Source: Hyphococcus sp.
GTDB lineage: Bacteria; Pseudomonadota; Alphaproteobacteria; Caulobacterales; Parvularculaceae
DNA length: 64,000 nt
Direction: 5' to 3'
Assembly (NCBI GenBank): GCA_021776245.1
Contig: JAJFGF010000048.1
Coordinates: 1-64,000, forward strand
Shown here: positions 24,485 through 25,071 of the stretch, piece by piece
Numbering within the stretch: the stretch's first letter is position 1
How the letters are laid out: every line of letters starts with the position of its first letter
The notes under the pieces: generated by a model
What the model saw: only the letters and a program-made list of their open reading frames with translations
The model's database searches: none
What the model was told of the DNA's origin: nothing
Position numbers and translations under genes: made by a program

Positions 24485-24604
24485 GTCCGCCTTCGCTGAA
24501 GCTTCGGCGGGACAGCCTTCGCCTGGTTGAGGTCTTGCACGCAGAATTTTTTTGGCGATTAAAGGCTGGCTTGCCAAGCCGAAGCCTGCGTAGCAGGCGA
24601 AGGC
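24485..24604. repeat. 120-bp direct repeat, copy 1 (downstream of the GIY-YIG gene)
   Basis: Identical base for base to 24876-24995 by eye. It contains CCTTCGCTGAAGCTTCGG, a run of seven T, and the pair GGCTGGCTTGCCAAGCC / GCCTGCGTAGCAGGC, both able to form hairpins. A degenerate relative lies just to the left (24420-24480). The copy ends about 25 bp beyond the stop of the GIY-YIG gene. Confidence 0.97.
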
Positions 24605-24629
24605 GCGCATCACTAAAATGTGGCGAAGG

Positions 24630-24869
24630 CTAAAGGCGTTTTTTTGCAAACGCTCGGCCTGAGCCGGATTTTAGATATTTCTCGAAGTCGTTTGCACGTG
24701 CGTCGTCTGAGAATGCAATGTACGTCTGCAGTTTCCAGGGAGCATATTTTTTCGTGTGACTTACTTGTCCTGCATTATGTTTTTCCAGGCGTTGACTAAT
24801 ATCATCGGTGATGCCGGTGTAGTGGCGCTGGGGGTCATCGCCGCTTTGCAAGATGTAGACGTATTTCAT
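24630..24869 (-). CDS. Single-domain GIY-YIG nuclease-like protein
   Basis: 79 residues starting MKYVYILQSG at 24869; the frame stays open through the repeat upstream, but that extension is repeat-encoded and not protein-like. The GIY-YIG core is complete: VYIL (GIY), HYTGIT (YIG), QRLEKHN with the catalytic Arg, and the metal-binding Glu in FEKYLKSGSGRAFAKK. The putative Shine-Dalgarno (AGGCGGA) lies within the adjoining 120-bp repeat. The gene is in the same direction as tRNA-Ala immediately upstream and may be read through from it. Stand-alone proteins of this type (UPF0213-like) have no settled function; the flanking repeats suggest mobility or mutual dependence. Confidence 0.9.
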   Translation of the reverse strand: MKYVYILQSGDDPQRHYTGITDDISQRLEKHNAGQVSHTKKYAPWKLQTYIAFSDDARANDFEKYLKSGSGRAFAKKRL

Positions 24870-24875
24870 CGTTTC

Positions 24876-24995
24876 GTCCGCCTTCGCTGAAGCTTCGGCG
24901 GGACAGCCTTCGCCTGGTTGAGGTCTTGCACGCAGAATTTTTTTGGCGATTAAAGGCTGGCTTGCCAAGCCGAAGCCTGCGTAGCAGGCGAAGGC
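24876..24995. repeat. 120-bp direct repeat, copy 2 (between tRNA-Ala and the GIY-YIG gene)
   Basis: Identical to the copy at 24485-24604, 391 bp away. Its right end is at 24995, immediately next to the encoded CCA end of tRNA-Ala at 24996. Its left end is 6 bp from the GIY-YIG start codon. The two copies thus enclose the nuclease gene precisely. Confidence 0.97.
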
Positions 24996-25071
24996 TGGTG
25001 GAGCTAGGCGGAATCGAACCGCCGACCTCGTCATTGCGAACGACGCGCTCTCCCAACTGAGCTATAGCCCC
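24996..25071 (-). tRNA. tRNA-Ala (anticodon CGC)
   Basis: 76 nt on the minus strand: acceptor GGGGCTA/TAGCTCC (one G-U pair), D-arm GCTCAGTTGGGAGAGC, anticodon loop TTCGCAA giving CGC, T-loop GGTTCGATTCC, and encoded CCA. Its 3' end abuts a 120-bp repeat. Confidence 0.97.

Follow-up and report, generated by a model that had tools for sequence, protein, structure and literature searches.

The tRNA-Ala(cgc) locus and its nuclease

The window, a stretch of 64,000 nucleotides from a Hyphococcus sp. contig (JAJFGF010000048.1), contains a tRNA-Ala(cgc) gene that is followed by a 120-bp unit, a short GIY-YIG nuclease gene and a second copy of the unit (Table 1). A first-pass annotation had proposed that the two copies, the second 391 bp from the first, are identical and that one of them abuts the tRNA exactly, and both points were confirmed. 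The copies match at 120 of 120 bases, the exact match breaks off at both ends (three differences over 128 bases), and such a repeat cannot be the product of chance. The CCA of the tRNA predicted by ARAGORN lies at 24996-24998 and the junction to the repeat copy is exact, the last A of the CCA (24996) being the first base of hairpin H1 of the unit. The nuclease ORF lies between the copies and encodes the sole protein of the cassette. The stretch of the candidate third unit was also indicated by the short direct-repeat families D2 and D4. Elsewhere in the window, a tRNA-Leu(cag) tail on the minus strand is followed by a gene for a 466-aa tyrosine-type integrase (Pfam Phage_integrase, E 3.5e-9), and this region (2600-4166) is probably an integrated element. 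A 28-bp tandem repeat with 6.1 copies and 96% matches (23312-23483) lies upstream of an aldehyde dehydrogenase gene.

Table 1. Features of the two occupied tRNA sites in the window
Feature	Position	Strand	Support
tRNA-Ala(cgc), host site	24996-25071	-	ARAGORN; Rfam RF00005, 65.6 bits
Unit 1, directly behind the CCA	24876-24995	-	Covariance model R1, 71.8 bits, E 4e-13; covariation
Unit 1, arms of H1	24988-24996 and 24905-24913	-	
Unit 1, inner hairpin GGCTTGGCAAGCC	24959-24971	-	
Unit 1, H2	24876-24904	-	
Single-domain Slx1-like GIY-YIG nuclease gene, 79 aa	24630-24869	-	Pfam; AlphaFold; Foldseek
Unit 2, following the nuclease gene, same sequence as unit 1	24485-24604	-	R1, 64.4 bits
Possible degenerate unit 3	~24372-24460	-	R1, 13.3 bits, E 0.41 (weak by itself)
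712-nt stretch from tRNA-Ala(cgc) to the DUF1295 gene	24284-24995	.	
tRNA-Leu(tag), second occupied site of the window	46293-46377	+	ARAGORN
Remains (37 nt) of a decayed unit between tRNA-Leu(tag) and the trigger factor gene	46378-46414	+	

The GIY-YIG assignment of the 79-aa protein was upheld by Pfam, with 52 bits against a cut-off of 22.6 (E 9e-14). The name-giving motifs read VYI and YTG instead of GIY and YIG. In an alignment of 44 nuclease sequences Y5, Y17, G19, R27, H31 and E63, which we take to be the active-site positions of the GIY-YIG fold, were conserved to at least 90%, and the core residues attributed to the protein at first inspection are thus present. The AlphaFold model obtained with this alignment had a mean pLDDT of 94.7. 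Among solved structures, Foldseek returned Slx1 chains as best matches (best E 2.6e-4), followed by At-HIGLE and the UPF0213 structure 1zg2, which was matched by sequence as well as by fold. The protein is a bare GIY-YIG catalytic domain. With the GIY-YIG domain alone making up the 79 aa, the DNA-binding region beyond the catalytic domain that is typical of homing endonucleases is absent, and in having only a catalytic domain the nuclease differs from the GIY-YIG homing endonucleases of T-even phages. Slx1 and UPF0213 share its fold and core motifs; Slx1, however, comprises an additional domain and has Slx4 as its partner, and we know of no tRNA link for UPF0213. Searches of the protein against NCBIfam and PHROGs gave no match at E 0.01, and tblastn found no match to the nuclease family in a plasmid collection (E 1e-8) or a phage collection (E 1e-5). 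Viral contigs contained four relatives, none of them with a whole tRNA in the stretch examined, and one (L302) sits behind a tRNA-like 3' fragment.

Structure and distribution of the unit

The unit is composed of H1, which begins with the A of the CCA, of the inner hairpin GGCTYGGCARGCC and of H2, whose internal loops are GNA/GNA. Over 56 sequences, H1 was 97.4% paired with 5 double-change cells compared with 0.5 in shuffles, and H2 was 96.2% paired with 66 such cells compared with 19. The rows (59 kept, 55 distinct) were chosen by matching the 3' arm of H1 to a pattern; because this pattern favours paired arms, the H1 count leans towards structure. H2 was selected at its 3' end only, and permuted or odd units, among them L104, L105, L109, L121, L135 and L153, were left out. 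In a 21-row alignment (A2), 97.6% of the cells paired, with 22 two-sided changes compared with 5.1 after shuffling, and pairing fell to 24-42% when the partners were slid. Further pair types were fewer than in the shuffles (10 vs 11.6), because shuffling creates new types by chance. In distant relatives the arms were replaced yet still paired, as in L241, where TCCTGCTTCGC pairs with GCGAAGCAGGA further on. Rfam, searched at a lax threshold with window positions 24300-25150 and ten relatives, contained no family for the unit; the only matches above the gathering score there were tRNA, tmRNA and one group II intron. At L129, in Bradyrhizobium, a group II intron match (RF00029, positions 5-77) lies about 1 kb upstream of a tRNA-Tyr cassette.

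A covariance model built from 21 tRNA-adjacent units, with a single tRNA base in it, found 23 places in 15 of 62 genomes, and all 23 were located behind a tRNA facing them. Seventeen of these start exactly at the CCA, three lie behind another short tail of ~73 nt, two are second units and one is offset by 14 nt. Eight of the places, in six genomes, occurred without a detected nuclease of the present kind. The first-pass annotation had reasoned that a unit found widely with no link to GIY-YIG genes or tRNA ends would speak against a tRNA-linked cassette; among the model matches no such occurrence was seen.

In the 4.14-Mb genome to which the window belongs, the 128-bp stretch had seven matches, six of them behind an intact tRNA. 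Two are carried by tRNA-Ala(cgc), namely the unit at the CCA and the copy 391 bp further on, and the further occupied tRNAs are tRNA-Ala(ggc) with two tandem units, tRNA-Leu(taa) and tRNA-Val(gac). The seventh match, located on a contig of 3.4 kb, follows the 3' part of this same tRNA-Val. This contig and the tRNA-Val contig have their first 141 nt in common and then diverge inside the tRNA, as an integrated island would leave them. Altogether, the unit motif starts the tail of 5 of the 44 distinct tRNA genes that ARAGORN found in the stretches examined, the fifth being tRNA-Leu(tag) in the window, and the remaining 39 have no such tail start. The genome contains one nuclease of the present kind and three other GIY-YIG loci, which are without a tRNA. 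When 60 relatives were searched with the 128-bp stretch, 16 gave matches, and 24 of the 26 new loci contained a tRNA, with no distance criterion applied.

Since the unit is on the tRNA strand, immediately behind the CCA, and covaries as a structure, it might be part of the host's RNA, with hairpins that serve as a terminator or as a signal in a tRNA-maturation trailer and with the nuclease as an accessory. A T-run, however, follows only 4 of 54 units, and an intrinsic terminator of the tRNA was rejected on this count. Most distinct tRNA genes of the own genome (39/44) do without such a tail start, and congeners differ in whether a given tRNA carries the unit. We regard a role of this kind as highly improbable.

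Nuclease relatives at tRNA and tmRNA genes

A first set of relatives, taken from the best 80 of 447 in a contig scan and from 12 genomes among 62 family genomes, comprised 95 nuclease matches in 94 loci. Downstream of a tRNA or tmRNA on the same strand were 88 of the 95 (85 behind a tRNA and three behind a tmRNA), at a distance of 54-398 nt. Six places occur twice in this set (L084/L099, L085/L098, L087/L111, L088/L143, L090/L167 and L095/L139), which also includes several near-identical Rhizobium loci. A unit-like start directly behind the CCA was present in 80 of the 88. For five of the other eight another short tail comes first (L084/L099, L091, L092, L175), and for three the predicted tRNA end is not a plain CCA junction (L168, L169, L172). 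The cassettes at L168 and L169 stand behind tRNA-Met genes that apparently have no encoded CCA at the junction.

When genomes of the class were drawn evenly, 41 of 385 had the nuclease, that of the window among them. Apart from the window there were 46 places, and 38 of these had a tRNA within 500 nt, with every tail starting behind the CCA. In a draw of the phylum, 24 of 398 genomes had the nuclease, only one of the 24 being from outside the class, and 21 of 25 loci were behind a tRNA. A sequence of 150 nt or more is common to loci of another set in four class-set rows and in 8 of the 25 phylum loci, and because the sets overlap, the three fractions (88/95, 38/46 and 21/25) cannot be added. 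As a control, the Pfam model was used to find 99 GIY-YIG places in 28 genomes of the genus, and 31 loci (28 of the 99 places and three from the own genome) were inspected. The only one with a tRNA, L275, has a nuclease of the present kind; none of the 30 other GIY-YIG loci had a tRNA in up to 1.5 kb on each side.

In the first two sets the hosts comprised 16 tRNA identities (Ala, Val, Leu, Tyr, Pro, Met, Ser, Arg, Lys, Ile, His, Gln, Asp, Phe, Gly and Thr) and tmRNA. The arrangement is thus not restricted to fixed orthologous positions, which the first-pass annotation had named as an argument against a cassette that moves, and its proposal, a minimal cassette at the 3' ends of tRNAs that encodes the nuclease and no other protein, is supported by the comparison across relatives. 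On the nuclease tree the tRNA identity changes 54 times, the tree being poorly resolved with 4 of 123 inner branches well supported. Within the best 80 of 447, relatives were also present in contigs labelled Acidobacteriota (several), Dadabacteria and Neomarinimicrobiota, labels of metagenome bins, which may err. The Kuenenia label of contig L115 was not counted, because L115 shares sequence with a genome of the class to which the window belongs (L228). Among the 62 genomes, those with the unit and those with the nuclease coincide (9 with both, then 3, 6 and 44). Because each nuclease carries its own unit, this coincidence arises partly by construction and was rejected as independent evidence.

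Among the rows read, the usual form of the cassette is one unit in front of the nuclease. Tandem units occur in some cassettes (e.g. L129, L141, L152 and L164), and a unit behind the nuclease gene, as in the window, at some loci (e.g. L086, L087, L090 and L166). Of the layout first described, tRNA, repeat, nuclease and repeat, the first three parts therefore stand and the second 120-bp copy falls away as a defining part; since it is not general, the repeats were rejected as ends of the element.

Rows without a tRNA numbered 7 of 95 in the first set (L095, L106, L113, L122, L139, L148, L156), 8 of 46 in the class set (L245, L246, L249, L250, L253, L255, L260, L268) and 4 of 25 in the phylum set (L305, L321, L323, L324). 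Several start behind a tRNA-like 3' fragment. Contig ends truncate L249 and L156, rearrangement is apparent in L148 and L305, and L324, the only match of the phylum draw outside the class, has no unit in the stretch examined. A tRNA 3' part without the 5' part precedes some copies (L106, L113, L122 and others), and at L122 an integrase gene lies directly on the other side of the fragment. Such observations would be expected if the repeats were attachment sites left behind by tyrosine-recombinase elements that use tRNA genes, as would a duplicated tRNA 3' end behind the gene, which was detected at 3 of 126 loci (L120, L144 and L248, 54-66 nt behind the gene) compared with 0.54 expected. An earlier count with a 16-nt query in 89 rows had given four rows with at least 14 of 16 positions, one of them in front of the unit. 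The other 123 of the 126 loci have no recognisable tRNA duplication behind the gene, however, the cassette has no integrase, and its unit covaries and accompanies one nuclease family, which makes an origin as island scars extremely unlikely. The orphan copies are better read as cassettes severed from their tRNA by later islands. A general target-site duplication was rejected on the same count (3/126), although some models of insertion would lead one to expect duplicated tRNA 3' ends behind the gene, and the duplicated ends at the three loci hint at another route in some lineages. The islands and prophages of tyrosine recombinases use the same target genes, tRNA and tmRNA; the cassette differs from them in that it has no recombinase, is mostly ~0.4-0.5 kb long (in Bradyrhizobium), joins exactly behind the CCA and does not regularly duplicate the tRNA end.

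Other tails were also observed behind tRNA genes. One hairpin family, ending in ...GAATGCCCCGGCAGGGG or similar, was seen at L084, L091, L200 and the own-genome tRNA-Phe (L015), and sometimes lies between the tRNA and the present unit. Two further tRNAs of the own genome, tRNA-Thr(cgt) (L030) and tRNA-Tyr (L041), have a common hairpin tail, TTTTTCGAG...CTCGAAAAA, directly behind the CCA.

Turnover at orthologous sites and a possible route of movement

Within the genus, 26 loci with the neighbouring yggT gene were compared, 16 with tRNA-Ala(cgc) and 10 without a tRNA. At the tRNA-Ala(cgc) site, unit and nuclease are present in the own genome, the nuclease is truncated in G021, a variant occupies G020, another element precedes the unit in G010, the unit of G022 is permuted and a 25-nt scar is left in G023; no such unit was seen in the other ten of the 16, for which up to 420 nt were examined. 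The comparison of strains at this site, a check already suggested from the sequence of the window, thus revealed the unit in some congeners and its absence from others. From tRNA-Ala(cgc) to the DUF1295 gene there are 57 nt in G023 compared with 712 nt here, and the first 25 of the 57 align to the unit. A clean pair of a never-occupied and an occupied site was not found, the nearest being G023 with its scar. At tRNA-Leu(tag), G020 has a unit and a nuclease (L093) where the own genome has the 37-nt remnant; the next gene here, trigger factor, is by eye the same in L093. In the orthologous tRNA-Ala(cgc) sites of G010, G026 and G016 (L187, L190 and L197), a different short tail element (in L187 TTTTTTGCCTCGCGGCG...) that ends in GGTTCGATGT... 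stands behind the CCA, and a second copy of the tRNA 3' end (TAGCTCCACCA or CAGCTCCACCA) follows it. L185 resembles, by eye, the matching empty site of L190.

A larger number of occupants could be compared at a tRNA-Ala(ggc) site next to a MarR-type gene, in a set of genomes that we take from sequence to be Bradyrhizobium; G762 was placed in this genus because its flank matches five named contigs, L150, L158, L163, L170 and L176, at 84-92%. This flank occurs in 108 of the 117 genomes searched, and 90 sites were read, 87 of which include tRNA-Ala(ggc) and three of which have no tRNA. One of two unit motifs starts 86 of the 87 sites, in some as a short remnant; in the 87th (L376) the unit is untyped and the nuclease present. 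A nuclease match was obtained in 74 sites and covered residues 3-76 or more in 66. Units starting with GCC occur with one nuclease lineage (34) and those starting with CGC with another (39), an agreement in 73 of 73. A tree of the flank (~1.3 kb) was calculated from the 30 sites for which long stretches were available (29 typed), with 9 of 27 inner branches open. It required 9 type changes compared with a mean of 9.4 and a lowest value of 6 in 200 label shuffles, and because the count is close to the shuffled mean, the occupant is unlinked from the history of its neighbour. In the sister pair L330/L331, 258 of 260 positions are identical on the tRNA side and 192 of 200 on the other side, compared with 221 of 423 in the piece between, and four further pairs look like this one. 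The left border of the exchanged piece is the CCA and the right border the stop codon of the nuclease, which is 0-16 nt away from the conserved flank in 48 of 52 measurable rows (of 71). At L408 a deletion has apparently removed the sequence between the start of the unit and the last part of the nuclease gene. Between CCA and stop there is no integrase gene and space for a single small gene only. Taken together, two unrelated cassettes of unit and nuclease change at one orthologous site independently of the phylogeny of the flank.

With homologous flanks on both sides of the swapped alleles in all five aligned pairs, the Bradyrhizobium exchanges could have come about by ordinary recombination between strains without the nuclease. 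A passive cassette, whose alleles are exchanged through the flanking tRNA and gene while the nuclease is uninvolved, would nevertheless leave unexplained the CCA junctions at 16 tRNA identities and tmRNA, the occupied and unoccupied orthologous sites, and the near full-length nuclease match kept at 66 of the 87 sites. We consider this reading very unlikely.

A relationship to REP sequences and RAYT, a tyrosine transposase, also deserves consideration. The unit would then be a hairpin transposon moved as single-stranded DNA, with a GIY-YIG enzyme replacing the tyrosine transposase, and the tRNA end would be no more than a preferred target. Small hairpin units with and without a gene, tandem units, conserved internal loops and the agreement of unit and nuclease types (73/73, though the two are physically linked) are in line with this. 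GIY-YIG enzymes, however, hydrolyse DNA, and we know of no rejoining by them; copies are also few, as seen from the 5 of 44 distinct tRNA genes here. REPs are high-copy, occur also inside genes and are not tied to tRNA 3' ends according to the accessible text of PMC3733652, whereas the unit was not dispersed in intergenic space, all 23 model matches being at tRNA ends, and the gene of the cassette encodes a GIY-YIG nuclease. We consider this explanation unlikely.

Among known systems, SegB and other free-standing GIY-YIG homing endonucleases of T-even phages resemble the cassette in that a nuclease gene stands among tRNA genes. In the accessible text of the reports, SegB cuts inside tRNA genes at the motif RAWTSGAAC (PMC13096335), which in our reading would be the reverse complement of a T-arm-like GTTCSAWTY, and drives recombination of its tRNA region (PMC13096335, PMC2988022). 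It differs in that it belongs to phage genomes, has no comparable unit described in that text and is not encoded exactly behind a CCA. The accessible text of a 2006 survey of the GIY-YIG superfamily (PMC1564403) mentions no such tRNA link, and a search of open-licence literature, partly in excerpts and hence no proof of absence, found the arrangement not described. No RAYT gene, integrase, intron match or regular T-run was found in the cassette. The statement of the first-pass annotation that no system of this layout was known to it holds for Rfam, NCBIfam and the open-licence papers as far as their text was accessible, the element being described in none of these sources.

We think it likely, from the sequence comparisons, that the cassette is a minimal mobile element that lands at the 3' ends of tRNA and tmRNA genes and is copied after a nuclease cut. 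Its site specificity and turnover are well supported by these comparisons, as are the structure of the cassette and the gene-less units at other tRNAs; that the Slx1-like nuclease drives the movement is what we infer. The nuclease would cut DNA at the tRNA end. As a bare Slx1-like domain it suggests recognition of DNA structure, and cutting would probably be guided by structure, with the extruded tRNA and unit hairpins as candidates and possibly also the universal T-arm. Host recombination would then repair the break from a cassette-carrying copy and so place the cassette behind the CCA with the tRNA unharmed, a form of homing in which the tRNA gene serves as shared flank, and gene-less units would be copied in trans. 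In Bradyrhizobium, judged by comparison only, the nuclease gene travels with the site and replaces other alleles, and in this respect the cassette appears to work like a homing element. We nevertheless did not classify it as one, since it has no DNA-binding region of the usual kind and its cutting of the unoccupied allele is putative.

A wider claim, to which we give somewhat less than an even chance, is that these cassettes form a new class of mobile elements in which a structure-guided single-domain nuclease, by recognising the folded DNA of tRNA end and hairpin, copies itself and, in trans, gene-less units to the CCA of any tRNA or tmRNA gene. If true, this mobile DNA would need only a nuclease of ~80 residues and a hairpin to land at tRNA 3' ends without a recombinase, and a highly conserved short sequence of every genome would be a universal landing pad that insertion leaves undamaged. 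Several questions become accessible to experiment: by what means a bare GIY-YIG domain locates its site, how structured insertions in the trailers are tolerated by tRNA genes, and what makes the regions downstream of tRNAs so variable among relatives. Genome engineers, too, would take an interest in a nuclease that sends insertions to a site both harmless and universal.
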